This document shows, piece by piece, positions 404 to 27,291 of a stretch of 29,152 bases of DNA. The stretch comes from a virus: the IMG/VR virus record IMGVR_UViG_3300020032_000003, positions 1 to 29,152 of that record. One strand, 5' to 3'. The first letter of the stretch is position 1. Each line of letters opens with the position of its first letter. Below the pieces are notes generated by a model, which was not told where the DNA came from, searched no databases, and worked only from the letters and a program-made list of their open reading frames with translations. The position numbers and the translations under genes were made by a program.

Positions 404-670
404 TTATTTTCTTTTGATTTCGTTCCAAGAATCAATTAATTGCTTATTCCATCGTTCGATATTTGCTTTTTCTTCAGGAGTTTGGAGTATTTGAAATATT
501 TCCTGATTAACTTCTTCCATCTTTTCTTGTGTATCAATCTTGATTACTTGCGGATAATGATAAAAATATATTCCGTTCTTTTTAATTTCTACAGTTATAT
601 CATATTTTTTTAGAAATTCATTTATTTTGTTTTTTGTTTCTAAAATAGTTTGAGAAATCGCTATAACAGG
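404..670 (-). CDS. Start-less ORF in the -1 frame after the holin-like gene (probable frameshift extension)
   Basis: This 88-codon frame is open from a TGA just upstream of the heptamer A AAA AAC (676-670) down to TAA at 404-406. It contains no ATG, GTG or TTG in its first half; the only ATG (518-520) would give 38 residues and has no convincing ribosome site. The product is Lys/Glu/Ile-rich and looks like real protein (for example KYDITVEIKKNGIYFYHY), mostly helical at the C-terminus. A -1 slip on A AAA AAC in the preceding gene enters exactly this frame at CCT (670-668) and would give a ~179-residue fusion whose N-terminal half carries the membrane segment. Alternatives are initiation at ATA (664-662) or ATT (658-656), or a start codon lost by mutation. 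I recognise no family. Confidence 0.6.
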   Translation of the reverse strand, partial: PVIAISQTILETKNKINEFLKKYDITVEIKKNGIYFYHYPQVIKIDTQEKMEEVNQEIFQILQTPEEKANIERWNKQLIDSWNEIKRK

Positions 671-942
671 TTTTTTAAATCATCTTCTATCTTTTTGAGA
701 GCTGTTTCCATTTCTTGAGTCGCTTGTGTAATGGAAGGCTTATCAGGATTCTTTTTTAAAATGTATACTGCCGTCTCTCCAAACTTGTATCCGAGATTGT
801 TCTCGATTTGATTAGCTTGCTCTTTATTTTTTAGTTTGTTGTTGAAAATATCTAACAGCCATCCAATTATCCATTCTGGTTTCAAGATTTGAATTAATAT
901 TGTCACTGCCAAAGTAATTATAACTGCCAAAGTTTCACTCAT
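661..942 (-). CDS. Holin-like small membrane protein
   Basis: A 93-residue protein with one long hydrophobic segment near the N-terminus (about residues 4-28, ending at an Ile-Gly-Trp-Leu-Leu stretch), then a charged Lys/Glu-rich helical tail. Size, topology and position directly after the muralytic enzyme suggest a role in lysis, as a holin or related membrane protein; no family was recognised with certainty. I chose ATG at 942 because GAGGTG lies 7 nt upstream; a TTG two codons earlier (948) is too close to that site. The gene overlaps the 3' end of the transglycosylase gene. Its last codons hold the canonical -1 heptamer A AAA AAC, four codons before the stop. Confidence 0.65.
   Translation of the reverse strand: MSETLAVIITLAVTILIQILKPEWIIGWLLDIFNNKLKNKEQANQIENNLGYKFGETAVYILKKNPDKPSITQATQEMETALKKIEDDLKNLL
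670..676 (-). promoter_or_regulatory. Candidate -1 frameshift heptamer A AAA AAC
   Basis: In the frame of the holin-like gene the codons read TTA AAA AAC CTG TTA TAG. A AAA AAC is a canonical X XXY YYZ site. Slipping back one base leads into the 88-codon frame that has no start codon of its own. I see no strong downstream stem or upstream SD-like stimulator, only a weak 5-bp hairpin. Confidence 0.45.
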
Positions 943-1438
943 GCTCAATCACCTCTTTTAAATTTTCTTTTGCCCATGCATACCACCACATTACGTCTTC
1001 ATTGTATTGCATCTTCTCAAACGGAAGCAATTCTGTTATTCTTTGATTATCTTGGTTTCCTTCATCAAGCCATTTCAAAATATATCCATAGCCCCAATTG
1101 TAGCACATGAGAGCAAATAACAAAGCCATTCCATTTTCATAGTCTTGGCTTAGAAAATACTGATACCAGCGAGTTAAATAAAGAGCTCCGATACGAATAT
1201 TTAGCAGTGGATATTTCATATCTTCTTTTGAAAATCGCATTCCAAAGTAAGAATTCACTTCTTGACGAGCTATATCCGTTATTTGCATAAGTCCAATAGC
1301 TCCCGACTTCGATTCAGCGTCAATTATACGATTGCTTTCTGTTTCTACAATTGCATATAACAAATATGGATCTAATCCCGTCTCTTTGCCTGCTTCAATA
1401 CAATACTCGAAGCAAGTTTTTCTATCAAGCTTTTCCAT
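935..1438 (-). CDS. Lytic transglycosylase, SLT/lysozyme-like (phage muralytic enzyme)
   Basis: Predicted to cleave peptidoglycan glycan strands at lysis. The SLT pattern is clear: an early Glu in IVETESNR (catalytic Glu about residue 34), then the SGAIGLMQI loop (about 45-53) and a later CYNWGYG corresponding to the AYNAG motif. The length of 167 residues is a bare catalytic domain with no visible cell-wall binding domain or signal peptide, so a membrane partner would have to let it out. ATG at 1438 is preferred: GGAGGTG lies 6 nt upstream, whereas the TTG at 1453 precedes that ribosome site. The start overlaps the stop of the XhlA-like gene, and the 3' end overlaps the holin-like gene, which indicates translational coupling within the lysis cassette. 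Transglycosylases also occur as tail-associated enzymes, but the position favours an endolysin. Confidence 0.85.
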   Translation of the reverse strand: MEKLDRKTCFEYCIEAGKETGLDPYLLYAIVETESNRIIDAESKSGAIGLMQITDIARQEVNSYFGMRFSKEDMKYPLLNIRIGALYLTRWYQYFLSQDYENGMALLFALMCYNWGYGYILKWLDEGNQDNQRITELLPFEKMQYNEDVMWWYAWAKENLKEVIEHE

Positions 1439-16369: not shown

Positions 16370-16616
16370 CGTTTGCACCTTCCAACAAAGCGATTAACTC
16401 ATTTTTTCTTATATTAGAAGGATAATCTATACGCTTTTCTTCAGCTAAATCTTTCAATTCTTTTAAACTTAAATCAGAAAGTTCTTTTTCTTCAGCTTCT
16501 ATTTTCTCAACAACATCTTTCATAACTTTGTAGTCTTTATCATCTATTTCAAAAACTTGATTTGTGAAATAATATTTATCTTTGTATTTAGTTCCAATAA
16601 CAGCTTTAACTTTCAT
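16347..16616 (-). CDS. Small protein with C-terminal HeH/SAP-like motif
   Basis: An 89-residue protein. The N-terminus is a short beta stretch (KVKAVIGTKYKDKYYFTNQ). Residues ~46-79 (LSLKELKDLAEEKRIDYPS, then NIRKNELIALLEG) form a helix-extended-helix motif of the HeH/SAP type, common in phage genes that lie between the major capsid and connector genes. It may bind nucleic acid or assist assembly; its role is not established. A good GGAGGTG precedes the ATG. Confidence 0.7.
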   Translation of the reverse strand: MKVKAVIGTKYKDKYYFTNQVFEIDDKDYKVMKDVVEKIEAEEKELSDLSLKELKDLAEEKRIDYPSNIRKNELIALLEGANDDESGNA

Positions 16617-16637
16617 ATTTCACCTCCAAAAAGCAAT

Positions 16638-16662
16638 ATAAGGGACTTTATCGTCCCCTTAT
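16638..16662 (-). terminator. Stem-loop just after the major capsid gene
   Basis: On the minus strand ATAAGGGGAC pairs with GTCCCTTAT (9 bp, one bulged G, 6-nt loop), starting 3 nt after the capsid stop codon; a run of five T follows 6 nt later. It is probably an attenuator or mRNA stabiliser that raises capsid expression relative to downstream genes. Confidence 0.6.
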
Positions 16663-16664
16663 CA

Positions 16665-17684
16665 CTAATAGCTTATTATTGCCCATTTGTCCATCGTTTC
16701 AGCACTTGGAAGTCCAATCATGGATACAATCGTCTTGACGTTCACAGGAGACTCTCTCTTATACTGTACTGAAACAGCTATACCTTCATCAACGAGTTCA
16801 ACTTGTGAATCGACTTTGCCCATGAGATCGGCTTCTTCTGGAGTAGTTCCATAATAGAAGTTTCCGAGATCTCCTTCAGGTATCAAAGTCATTCTGGAAT
16901 CAGGATAGAATTTGCCAGTAGCGTGTCTCTTGTTGTAAATAGCGATTGATAATCCGAGCTCGTTCAGCATAAATTCAGACAAGTTATTTGTACTTGGATA
17001 CAATTGCATTGACGATAAAGCAGTTCTGATTTTCTCATTTTGTAAAATATCGTTGAATGTTTTTTGAGTACAAATAGCTCTCGTTGGTCTTTCTCCCGTA
17101 TCTTCTTCAACCTTATCCTGCATTGTTCTTATATCTTCTAACGGATTTGAGTTCGCAAAGTCCGTCCATGCAGCTGTTCCAGTGAGCCTAAGTTTATGGC
17201 TTGTATCAAAGCTATAATCATAACTTATCGGAGATCCTTCAAAATTCATTGTTATAGTTCCATATGCCAATAGCTGCATAATCATTCTTTCTTTTGTAAC
17301 ATATGCAGATCTTAGCAAAGACGTTGCATCGTCGTATATTCTATTTACAACAGCATCGATCAAAACTTGATTCCCAGTATCCAAAACTTTTAATAACTCT
17401 TGCCTGTCTTTTTCACCAATCATCAAACCTTCACGGAAGAACGGCATTTCACTCTCAATTTTTGTTAAGCCCTGTCTTTCTCTCATTGGAACTTCTGAGT
17501 CAAACGCTGAAGCTTTCAAAGAAACGGGAAGTCCAGAGTTGCCTTTGAGAAATGCAAGAGTTAATCCAAGTTGCTTAACTGATGGAAATAAAGCAAATCC
17601 CAAATAATCAACGTTATCATAACCAGCGTTAATCCAATAGTCTTTTATATATCTCGGAGTTACTAAATCAAATATAGTTGCCAT
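16665..17684 (-). CDS. Major capsid protein (lambda gpE-like family)
   Basis: A 339-residue HK97-fold capsid protein of the gpE-like family, forming the icosahedral shell. Seen: the N-terminus IFDLVTPRYIKDYW, a P-loop/E-loop region with DSEVPMRERQGLTKIESEMP (about 64-83), the spine helix VLIDAVVNRIYDDATSLLRSAY (split: VLIDAVVNRIYDDA then TSLLRSAY), TRAICTQKTFNDIL, and the C-terminal SPVNVKTIVSMIGLPS. It is preceded by scaffold and decoration genes, and AAGGAGG lies ahead of the ATG. No N-terminal extension suggesting protease processing is visible. Confidence 0.9.
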   Translation of the reverse strand: MATIFDLVTPRYIKDYWINAGYDNVDYLGFALFPSVKQLGLTLAFLKGNSGLPVSLKASAFDSEVPMRERQGLTKIESEMPFFREGLMIGEKDRQELLKVLDTGNQVLIDAVVNRIYDDATSLLRSAYVTKERMIMQLLAYGTITMNFEGSPISYDYSFDTSHKLRLTGTAAWTDFANSNPLEDIRTMQDKVEEDTGERPTRAICTQKTFNDILQNEKIRTALSSMQLYPSTNNLSEFMLNELGLSIAIYNKRHATGKFYPDSRMTLIPEGDLGNFYYGTTPEEADLMGKVDSQVELVDEGIAVSVQYKRESPVNVKTIVSMIGLPSAETMDKWAIISY

Positions 17685-22682: not shown

Positions 22683-22900
22683 TTGAACCTCTCCCACTTA
22701 CGCTTCGCTAAGAAGTGGGAGATTCTTGAGAAGTTTGGTAGATTACACTACCCTTATTCTCAAAGGGTGGTTCAAACACCCATTATCCCTCGCAACTTGT
22801 ATTGCTCTGGGAATGCCTTTGATATATTTTCTTAATATATTCAATGCCCCATTTACGTCAGCATTAATTAACATACCATTGTTTGTTTTAAAAAGACCTC
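22683..22900 (-). ncRNA. Probable omega/reRNA region of TnpB and right-end hairpin
   Basis: In TnpB systems the guide RNA comes from the 3' end of tnpB plus the right end, with the guide taken from the flanking DNA. Here the last ~150 nt of tnpB, the 9-bp stem CTCCCACTT/AAGTGGGAG (22691-22699 with 22713-22721) and the TTCAA end fit that plan. The 5' limit is a guess from known systems; the flanking 'guide' would begin AATAATACTTGC. Confidence 0.5.
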
Positions 22901-23984
22901 TCGTTATTCTTCTTGACTTATTGTAATTAGCTTTATTTATTTCTTCTAAATCTATTGCACTACACCCACTTGTATAAGATTCATTAATCATTACTACCTT
23001 TAACCCTACCAACTCTGCCTTATATTTTATTTTATTGACTAATTCTTGTTGTGGTATTTGCACAAAACTCTTAGCGAAATTCTCTTGTTTAATTCCTCTA
23101 ATATCACCTATAACTATTGTATTACAATTCATTGTAAGTGCTAATTCTACTATTTTTTTACTTATTTTGTGTAATTTATCTTTAATATAATCATTTCTTT
23201 TCTTTTGTAATTTTATTATTTTCTTTGTTCTTTTAAAATTTTTGCTATCATTACATTGTTTCATAGCAATAGAAGTTAATCTTGCTATTTCTTTATTGTA
23301 ATAAGCATTTTTACTTTTTAAATGCTTACCACTAAAAATAATACATTGTTCATTATCTTTAAATACACAAGTTGCAAGATTATCTAATCCTAAATCAATT
23401 GCCATTACATTATCACCAGTTACTTTATTTATAATTTCATTTTCCCATATTATTAGTAAATACCATCTTTTAGAAGAATTATTCCATTGTAATTTAATTT
23501 GATTAATCCTCGATAAATTCACAGGTATTTTGATATTCTTCATGTCAAAATTTAAACTTTGAACCTGAAACTTATCTTGTATTGCCTTTGATAATGATAG
23601 CTTTAATATACCATTTTTATACCTTATCCCTGCTGTTGTAAATATTATCTCGTTCTTTTTATTATTTGTATTCTTAAACTTTGGTGGTTTAGGCAATCCT
23701 AAATATTTATTTGGGTTTTTCTTATAATCTTTTATTGAAGCAAAATAAGATTTCCAATCCTGTTCTAACATCTTCAAACACCATTGATAAGTGTGCGAAT
23801 GTAGAAATTGTGTATGATAATTTTGCTTATATAACTTTTCAGTTTCATAATAGTTTTTAAAACCATTTTCTCTATTTTCATAGTTTACTATGTTATATAG
23901 CTTTGTTGTATGATATGATAATTCTTCTATAATATTTTGTTGTAATTGATTTAATTTAGGATAGTATTTAAAACTTACTTTCAC
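22743..23984 (-). CDS. tnpB: TnpB, RNA-guided endonuclease of IS605-type element
   Basis: A 413-residue TnpB (OrfB). Seen: the N-terminal helical/beta region with WKSYFASIKDYKKNP, RuvC-I Asp197 (AIDLGLDNLATC), RuvC-II region VIGDIRGIKQ (291-300), and RuvC-III Asp376 (NADVNGALNIL). In classical TnpB the RuvC-II position is Glu; here it is Gly293 followed by Asp294, while a Glu at 335 in INESYTSGCS is a possible replacement, as reported for TnpB groups with a rearranged catalytic site. The usual four-Cys zinc finger between YTS and NADVNG is absent; the space holds AIDLEEINK and KRRITRGLF-like basic wording instead. The start is GTG at 23984 with GGAGGTG. A consensus promoter (TTGACA-17-TATAAT) lies just upstream. 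Confidence 0.92.
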   Translation of the reverse strand: MKVSFKYYPKLNQLQQNIIEELSYHTTKLYNIVNYENRENGFKNYYETEKLYKQNYHTQFLHSHTYQWCLKMLEQDWKSYFASIKDYKKNPNKYLGLPKPPKFKNTNNKKNEIIFTTAGIRYKNGILKLSLSKAIQDKFQVQSLNFDMKNIKIPVNLSRINQIKLQWNNSSKRWYLLIIWENEIINKVTGDNVMAIDLGLDNLATCVFKDNEQCIIFSGKHLKSKNAYYNKEIARLTSIAMKQCNDSKNFKRTKKIIKLQKKRNDYIKDKLHKISKKIVELALTMNCNTIVIGDIRGIKQENFAKSFVQIPQQELVNKIKYKAELVGLKVVMINESYTSGCSAIDLEEINKANYNKSRRITRGLFKTNNGMLINADVNGALNILRKYIKGIPRAIQVARDNGCLNHPLRIRVV

Positions 23985-24006
23985 ATTTTCACCTCCTTTT
24001 AGTTTT

Positions 24007-24057
24007 ATTATATCATAATGTTATCACCTTGTCAACTATGTTTTTTTATGATATAAT
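24007..24057. promoter_or_regulatory. Symmetric divergent promoters of tnpB and the RHH gene
   Basis: Minus strand: TTGACA (24035-24030), 17 nt, TATAAT (24012-24007). Plus strand: TTGTCA (24029-24034), 17 nt, TATAAT (24052-24057). Both have extended TGATATAAT. The -35 boxes share bases and the whole 51-nt unit is an inverted repeat with perfect 12-bp arms (ATTATATCATAA / TTATGATATAAT) and a TTGTCAA centre at 24032. Polymerase can hardly bind both at once, and the symmetry would suit a dimeric regulator. Confidence 0.8.
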
Positions 24058-24075
24058 ATATTTGGGGGTGATAAT

Positions 24076-24231
24076 ATGGCTATTTCAAAGGATAATACAA
24101 GGACTCTTATTACTATTCCAAAAGAGTTAAAAAAACAACTAGAAGAAATTGCTAAGCAAGATAATAGAAGTTTTAATAATTTAGTGGTCAAAATTCTAAA
24201 AGACTATGTTAGCAATTCATCTCCCACCTAA
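24076..24231 (+). CDS. Small ribbon-helix-helix DNA-binding protein in the IS
   Basis: A 51-residue protein encoded divergently from tnpB. Residues ~8-45 fit the MetJ/Arc/CopG ribbon-helix-helix fold: a strand TRTLITIPKEL, then helix KKQLEEIAKQD, turn, and helix SFNNLVVKILKDYV. Such proteins bind operators as dimers. GGGGGTG lies 5 nt ahead of the ATG. It has its own promoter overlapping that of tnpB. The last three codons and the stop lie inside the left-end hairpin, so the gene is an integral part of the element and not a bystander. A role in repressing tnpB and itself is inferred from the shared symmetric promoter. Confidence 0.8.
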   Translation: MAISKDNTRTLITIPKELKKQLEEIAKQDNRSFNNLVVKILKDYVSNSSPT

Positions 24232-24242
24232 AGAGGTGGGAG
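24221..24242. repeat. Left-end hairpin of the IS605-type element
   Basis: A perfect 9-bp stem CTCCCACCT / AGGTGGGAG with a 4-nt loop (AAAG). Its first seven stem bases equal those of the right-end hairpin. It overlaps the stop codon of the RHH gene. Confidence 0.8.
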
Positions 24243-24261
24243 TCTTCTTGCTTGTTTTCTG

Positions 24262-25106: not shown

Positions 25107-25540
25107 TTTATAACCTCCTCAATTAATTTCTTAAATTCTTCACGTTTTGATATAAGTTTAGTAAAATCAATTTTTCCTTTGTCTCTTTCCGAAGCTTCAC
25201 TTTCTAACTCAATTTTATAGTTATTTAGATGTATTATTATATCATGAAACAAAAACACAGCTTTATTTTCACGCTCATCAAGTTCGATCCCGAGATAAAG
25301 AATATTTTCGTTTTTCTCATTTTCAACAATAAGATCTATAAACATATCGTAGAAAAATAATTCAGTATAATAATTGAATTCAATTTTCCATTCCTCAGGT
25401 ACTTGTAACTCACTAAGAAATTTCTTCATATCTCTAATATGCTTTCTTTGAGTTTTTTCAGAATGATAATGATGCTCAATCTCTTTCTCTAACTTTTTCC
25501 AATTTCCGTTTTCTTTTACTATATCAAACGCATTTTTCAT
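25103..25540 (-). CDS. Paralogue A of a tandem pair, unassigned
   Basis: A 145-residue protein opening MKNAFDIVKENGNWKKLE, with a middle VPEEWKIEFNYYTELFF and a Glu/Lys-rich C-terminal helix. I start it at ATG 25540 because GAGGCGAGG precedes it and the opening then lines up with its paralogue downstream; an ATG at 25603 would add 21 residues that overlap the preceding gene. Function unknown; soluble, acidic. Confidence 0.7.
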   Translation of the reverse strand: MKNAFDIVKENGNWKKLEKEIEHHYHSEKTQRKHIRDMKKFLSELQVPEEWKIEFNYYTELFFYDMFIDLIVENEKNENILYLGIELDERENKAVFLFHDIIIHLNNYKIELESEASERDKGKIDFTKLISKREEFKKLIEEVIK

Positions 25541-25562
25541 TTCCTCGCCTCCATTATTATTT

Positions 25563-25877
25563 TTATTTATTTTCTTCAAGAATCTTTTGATAGTCCAAAT
25601 CATAATTTTCTTTTGATAGTACCAGCCACATGATTGAATATCCAGCTATATCCTTCAATGTATCATCCAACGACTCATTGTTTAGCTCTGAATTGTTTAA
25701 CACATGATTTTTCAAGCGTTCCAACTTATCCGACAATCTTATCAAAATTCCAAGATTTCCAAAAGTCAATAAGTTTTTAGCTCCATAATCCTTGTTCTTC
25801 TTTATTAGCAGCTGCTCAATCTCACTAATAACTGCATGTAAAATTTCTTCAAATTCTTTGTTCTCATTACTTTCCAT
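25563..25877 (-). CDS. Nmad1/DUF1599-like protein
   Basis: About 104 residues, all helical. The core KKNKDYGAKNLLTFGNLGI (about 26-44), LSDKLERLKNHV and ESLDDTLKDIAGYSIMWL (about 68-85) matches the DUF1599 family, described as 'nucleotide modification associated domain 1' and frequent in phages; it recalls MazG-like all-alpha nucleotide hydrolases by its DxxD-containing last helices. A role in the nucleotide pool or in base modification is possible but not shown. ATG at 25877 is preferred (GGAG 9 nt upstream); the ATG at 25901 overlaps the previous stop and has no ribosome site. Confidence 0.75.
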   Translation of the reverse strand: MESNENKEFEEILHAVISEIEQLLIKKNKDYGAKNLLTFGNLGILIRLSDKLERLKNHVLNNSELNNESLDDTLKDIAGYSIMWLVLSKENYDLDYQKILEENK

Positions 25878-26481: not shown

Positions 26482-26919
26482 TTAATCTATATCTCTCAAT
26501 TTATCCATTTCCTTCAACTTTCCATCCAATTCAATATTTTGTAATAGCAATTCTTTATTTTGCTTTTTCAACTTTTCTACTTCTTCAACTAACGCTTTAT
26601 TACTTTCCATTAGCTTTAAATTTTGCTCTTGATAAAATAGTATATTTTTGTCTGCCTCGTTTAAAATATTTTTCTGATACCGCTCTATTAGTTTTTCTCT
26701 GAGATCATTACACAAATCTTGGAAGTATTCTTTTTCTTGACATAAATTTTTATTTTCTTCTAACAGAGCTTTGTTTTTCTCTATAATTTCATGATTAGTC
26801 TGTTCTAACTCTTTGATTTCTTCTTCTATTTTTCCATTCTTTGACTTTTCTACCAACTTATCAGCTAACATCTCCGCAAACTCATCTAAAAATTCATTAA
26901 AATCTTTGCCATTACTCAT
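26482..26919 (-). CDS. Coiled-coil protein, copy 2
   Basis: About 145 residues, almost entirely coiled coil from ~25 onward. The phrase KELEQTNHEIIEKNKALLEE is nearly the same as in the gene at 27790, and QNLKLMESNK recurs, so the two are paralogues. ATG at 26919 is preferred because GGGGAG lies 8 nt upstream; GTG at 26928 is too close. No function can be assigned. Confidence 0.7.
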   Translation of the reverse strand: MSNGKDFNEFLDEFAEMLADKLVEKSKNGKIEEEIKELEQTNHEIIEKNKALLEENKNLCQEKEYFQDLCNDLREKLIERYQKNILNEADKNILFYQEQNLKLMESNKALVEEVEKLKKQNKELLLQNIELDGKLKEMDKLRDID

Positions 26920-27085
26920 TTTTCTCACTCCCCTTTATTATCTTTTCAAACTTGCCACTTAGTTTGTCTACATCGCATAAACTTTCTAAAATAGCTCCAA
27001 TCTTCTCAAATGCTATTTTGCCATCGTATTTAAACTCATAACTTCCGCCTCCAATATAATTTATCTTGATTTTACAGCTTTTAAA
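26912..27085 (-). CDS. Start-less ORF in the -1 frame after the 76-residue gene
   Basis: A 57-codon open frame that has no ATG, GTG or TTG at all, bounded upstream by TAA at 27088-27086. The product reads like real protein: KINYIGGGSYEFKYDGKIAF, then EKIGAILESLCDVDKLSGKF. The preceding gene carries T TTA AAA (27085-27079) in its own frame, a canonical X XXY YYZ heptamer, and a -1 slip there enters this frame at AGC. It ends 8 nt into the next coding region. Alternatives: initiation at ATT/ATA, or a lost start codon. No family recognised. Confidence 0.5.
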   Translation of the reverse strand, partial: FKSCKIKINYIGGGSYEFKYDGKIAFEKIGAILESLCDVDKLSGKFEKIIKGSEKNE

Positions 27086-27291
27086 TTATGTATTAGTTTA
27101 TAATCTCCATAAAAAATTATATAATTTTTTAGATCTGATTTTCTGTTAAACTCAATCCAATATTCTCCTGTTCTAAAATCGTTTAAATATTTTTCAATTA
27201 TAATCCAATCTTCATCGATTGTCTTATAAATCTCTTCTAATCTTTGTTTAATGAATTCTTTTGCTCTTTTGATTTGCATATTGCTCATCAT
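27061..27291 (-). CDS. Small early protein, unassigned
   Basis: A 76-residue basic protein: helix MQIKRAKEFIKQRLEEIYKT, then a beta part (TGEYWIEFNRKSDLKNYIIF). AAGGAGG lies 8 nt ahead of the ATG. Near its end the codons AAT TTA AAA GCT contain the slippery heptamer T TTA AAA, from which a -1 shift would replace its last five residues by the 57-codon frame downstream. No family recognised. Confidence 0.65.
   Translation of the reverse strand: MMSNMQIKRAKEFIKQRLEEIYKTIDEDWIIIEKYLNDFRTGEYWIEFNRKSDLKNYIIFYGDYKLIHNLKAVKSR

Follow-up and report, generated by a model that had tools for sequence, protein, structure and literature searches.

Programmed -1 frameshifting at heptamers of the form X XXY YYZ is known from the tail chaperones of phages, from IS elements and from dnaX. 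In E. coli, which may not be the host of the phage considered here, the selected motifs of one study include U_UU.A_AA.G and U_UU.A_AA.U, the former being among the most efficient (PMC4066793). Stimulators resembling Shine-Dalgarno (SD) sequences were considered there at 6-17 nt before the motif, and motifs devoid of stimulator reached motif/no-motif ratios of 10 at most, which on a background of about 0.055% amounts to less than 1% frameshifting (PMC4066793). Two other classes come close to the present locus: singleton frameshifted genes validated by homology, of the GeneTack type (PMC3711429), and corrective or 'savior' indels (PMC5009743).

The DNA analysed here, called the window below, is a 29,152-base IMG/VR virus record, and the feature of interest lies on its minus strand. 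The original prediction was that of a -1 frameshift site, and the arrangement that it described is present on that strand: a 76-residue gene carries T TTA AAA in frame near its end, the -1 frame behind it runs for 57 codons without ATG, GTG or TTG, and the upstream stop that touches the heptamer is a TAA codon of the -1 frame (ACA TAA TTT AAA AGC). The heptamer conforms to X XXY YYZ and lies in the overlap of both frames. The features of the locus are as follows.

27061-27291, minus strand: 5' part of the broken gene, a 76-codon ORF with its ATG start at 27291
27083..27085, minus strand: site of the missing T, TTT in the window and TTTT in both relatives
27085..27079, minus strand: T TTA AAA heptamer, in frame near the end of the 76-codon ORF, probably created by the deletion as judged by comparison with the relatives
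26912-27085, minus strand: 3' half of the gene, a -1 frame of 57 codons that contains no ATG, GTG or TTG and corresponds to residues 70-126 of the intact protein
26482-26919, minus strand: next gene, coiled-coil-like, with an 8-base overlap between its ATG and the TAA of the 57-codon frame

Comparison with relatives and paralogues

Two relatives of the locus were found, the IMG/VR records 3300034685_000103 and 3300033999_000086, and in both of them the two halves form one continuous 126-codon ORF. The 57 codons, which had been judged to encode convincing protein, are real protein sequence beyond chance, with a 98% match over all 57 residues to residues 70-126 of the intact 126-residue gene product. 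Codons 1-71 of the 76-codon ORF are the counterpart of the intact gene, and its tail AVKSR is out-of-frame sequence past the deletion. The alignment of the gene contains a single gap (window, CATAATTTAAAAGC; both relatives, CATAATTTTAAAAGC), and the junction differs by one T, reading AATTTAAAAGC in the window and AATTTTAAAAGC in the relatives. By sequence comparison, the two ORFs are one gene, and the frameshift is located in the DNA record itself. The proposal of a single product made from the two parts has thus held, whereas that of a programmed site has not, since the ORF is continuous, with one more T, in 2 of 2 relatives, and neither the site nor the split is conserved in either of them.

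The start of the 26482-26919 gene overlaps the last codons of the preceding gene in the window as in both relatives. With the 76-codon ORF closing early, the stop ahead of this gene lies at 27061 in the window instead of 26912; any translational coupling between the two genes would be conjectural. A perfect 22-base AT palindrome is also present within the broken gene, at 27110-27131, and is altered in both relatives.

The 126-residue protein is identical between the two relatives, which from their sequences may count as a single witness; the independent witness is provided by paralogues. A 117-residue gene of the first relative matches the 126-residue protein directly (E 8e-6, or 2.5e-5 among 730 ORFs), and a profile built from these two proteins, without the 130-residue paralogues, finds the 130-residue genes of both relatives with E values of 3e-8 to 4e-8. 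These three paralogues share 31, 26, and 27% identity with the 126-residue protein and are all unbroken across the junction, which is flanked in them by the invariant residues F70 and C73 (numbering of the intact protein). Because the paralogues are unbroken and the conserved F and C flank the junction, the continuous state is most likely ancestral, the base having been lost in the window. In all, the first relative has three copies of the family and the second two, against the one broken copy of the window, where no other was found. At 25540-25563, both relatives have an extra gene that is missing from the window, namely the 130-residue paralogue of the broken gene. The 24 bases of the window at this place match both ends of that gene as it stands in the first relative, a pattern that recombination between similar gene starts would leave.

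Beyond the two relatives, no homologue was detected in viral contigs with the 57-residue half, the intact protein, the profile or DNA patterns, nor was one found in genome contigs, or among annotated phages by DNA or protein. In particular, no homologue of the 57-codon part begins with its own ATG at the KIKINYIG position, the finding that had been named as contradicting a fusion, and this part is without a start of its own. The exact deleted junction is absent from every other viral contig searched, a point against a deletion that exists in nature.

A putative single-base deletion

The pattern very probably reflects a single-base deletion private to this record, either a recent mutation that made a pseudogene or a consensus error, in an otherwise continuous early-region gene of about 126 residues. 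Either origin would give the three-T record. One T would have been lost from a run of four in the coding sequence, upon which the frame would close after 76 codons, with the other 57 stranded in the -1 frame and deprived of a start. The intact codons AAT TTT AAA AGC, minus one T, would become AAT TTA AAA GCT, which contain T TTA AAA. As NNT TTT AAA A minus T always gives NNT TTA AAA, the heptamer would be a by-product of the deletion, and since the old frame becomes the -1 frame in mid-gene, there is no reason for it to contain a start codon. A one-base deletion would thus be one cause for the heptamer, the missing start and the open second frame together. As the loss of a single T suffices to produce the heptamer and the missing start, these two traits are no evidence of programming before homologues have been compared. 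Translation would mostly yield a truncated protein without its last strands and helix, the gene being newly broken, or else the base would be missing from the consensus only. We infer that the deletion, if real, is recent and its truncated product non-working.

The frequency of such patterns in the window bears on the same point. Among the 35 minus-strand ORFs listed (8,843 codons), T TTA AAA occurs in frame 11 times, in agreement with the earlier caution that such heptamers are common in AT-rich DNA, and X XXW WWN heptamers occur in frame 82 times. The missing start had been considered the stronger part of the argument; open start-less frames of 45-75 codons are no rarity either (minus strand, 5 of 22, the 57-codon frame included; plus strand, 15 of 122). 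Since neither in-frame heptamers nor start-less frames are rare in the window, their combination is weak evidence.

An audit against the two relatives found this frame break to be the only one in a sense-strand gene. Of the ORFs with a match in the window, 36 in the first relative and 35 in the second, 1 each is frame-broken, and it is the same gene both times; in the reverse direction, with window ORFs compared to the relatives, indels break none of the sense-strand genes. A lone sense-strand break points to a single case, be it a recent mutation or a single consensus error. Six other flagged candidates were dropped as not being breaks of sense-strand genes: three antisense ORFs, on the plus strand, of the first relative; the window segment 25106-25645, which the first relative's extra gene explains; and two further antisense ORFs on the plus strand, 16473-16769 of the window and L019:341-793. 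Relative to the two relatives, the 3' part has two synonymous and one non-synonymous codon changes in 57 codons, and the 5' part has pS 0.108 and pN 0.032, numbers that, together with the three changes of the 3' part, are too small to judge relaxed selection. A segment of about 1.6 kb, at 22683-24261, is absent from both relatives, whose sequence continues there without gap. It contains the following gene.

22743-23984, minus strand: TnpB-like gene with OrfB_IS605 and Cas12f1-like_TNB domains

The 22683-24261 segment is an insertion of the IS200/IS605 type that, of the three records, this one alone carries.

The intact protein is predicted to form one small domain, in the order helix, five strands, helix (mean pLDDT 80.1 and pTM 0.74, with four sequences only). 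The junction falls at the start of the fourth strand (69-78) of this predicted domain, and the 76-residue product would lack two of the five strands as well as the final helix. In Pfam and PHROG, the gene has no family match at E <0.01, only weak PHROG matches. The profile search for solved structures gave no convincing relative: three weak matches, the best with E 0.014, all fall within the last helix. A Foldseek search of PDB and BFVD gave nothing at E up to 0.001. In view of these family and fold searches, no function is assigned. The broken gene sits among early genes, close to those for SSB and DnaB (DnaB_C), and at a guess from these two neighbours it might encode a small early accessory protein. 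The three and two copies in the relatives, against one broken copy in the window, would be in keeping with a dispensable accessory role.

Alternative readings of the split

A -1 slip at the heptamer would restore exactly 126 residues, with one change from F to L, and low-level slippage could therefore make some full-length protein, so that the gene may still be functional. A real deletion might on this account be tolerated as a corrective indel, adventitious slippage at the new heptamer, ribosomal or less likely transcriptional, giving a little full-length protein. The deletion would create its own slippery site, and the 3' part still differs from the intact gene by no more than 3 codon changes in 57; the class itself has been described (PMC5009743). 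Stimulator-less motifs yielded less than 1% in published measurements (PMC4066793), and this counts against the account. We regard the reading as improbable. A run of three T and four A is moreover short for transcriptional slippage. Equally improbable in our view is the extension of this idea in which a real deletion has been kept in the phage population because slippage at T TTA AAA supplies a low, constant amount of full-length protein; the mutation would then down-regulate the gene at once rather than knock it out.

Programmed -1 ribosomal frameshifting at T TTA AAA, with the 76- and 126-residue products both intended as at other phage recoding sites, would account for the in-frame X XXY YYZ heptamer, for the start-less but real coding sequence in the -1 frame, and for the fact that a slip yields exactly the full-length protein. 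Against it stand the unsplit, continuous gene of both relatives and the high frequency of T TTA AAA in this record. No stimulator was detected either. The 106 nt from the site fold with -11.4 kcal/mol, a stability not above that of shuffled sequences (z 0.00; 87 of 200 shuffles at least as stable; pseudoknot-free folding), and no SD-like element precedes T TTA AAA at 6-17 nt, the sole GGAG lying about 20 nt upstream. The motif U_UU.A_AA.A is also absent from two E. coli lists in the text of PMC4066793, one of shift-prone and one of most efficient motifs; its absence from the first is a weak argument, as that list also required under-representation, and the comparison serves as a guide only, since the host and its tRNAs may differ from those of E. 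coli. Programmed frameshifting is thus very unlikely at this locus.

That the halves are two separate genes, the second starting from a non-canonical codon, is hardly credible: ATC, ATA or ATT codons are available at codons 6, 8, and 11 of the frame, but no SD-like sequence occurs in the 20 bases ahead of any of them, a nearby ATG preceded by GGAGG is out of frame and opens 8 codons only, and the halves are one gene in the relatives, with the break cutting the predicted domain.

Consequences and comparison with described systems

With a single-base deletion as the preferred reading, one of the three recoding candidates of the record is eliminated, and the count of three -1 candidates in 29 kb has to be lowered by the 26912-27291 locus. 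The analysis also provides a rule for scans of AT-rich phages, namely that a T lost from NNT TTT AAA A yields T TTA AAA and a start-less -1 remainder. The locus had been likened to a second site of the same record, given as 404-676 and made up of the following features.

661-945, minus strand: small gene ahead of the 91-codon frame, with GAT TTA AAA AAC CTG TTA TAG, in which both T TTA AAA and A AAA AAC are in-frame heptamers
404-679, minus strand: start-less -1 frame of 91 codons behind the small gene

The likeness does not extend to the homologues. Both relatives keep the 404-679 arrangement free of indels (0 and 3 substitutions in its 91 codons), whereas neither keeps that of 26912-27291; no further relatives of the 404-679 region were found beyond the two. 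Having passed this first homologue check, the 404-679 site merits attention in place of 26912-27291, as the better candidate for real -1 frameshifting or for an unusual start.

Among described systems, programmed -1 sites of the X XXY YYZ type resemble the locus by their in-frame heptamer ahead of a start-less -1 frame, but here the site is not conserved, no stimulator was found, and the gene is continuous in relatives (PMC4066793). The likeness to 'savior' or corrective indels lies in an indel beside a slippery run whose slip restores the frame (PMC5009743); in the present case both the slippage product and selection for it would be hypothetical. With the GeneTack-class singleton genes validated by homology, the locus shares a frame transition in one record and homologues that are continuous, the difference being that the genomes covered there were complete prokaryotic ones, and that here the transition is found in a metagenomic virus record (PMC3711429).
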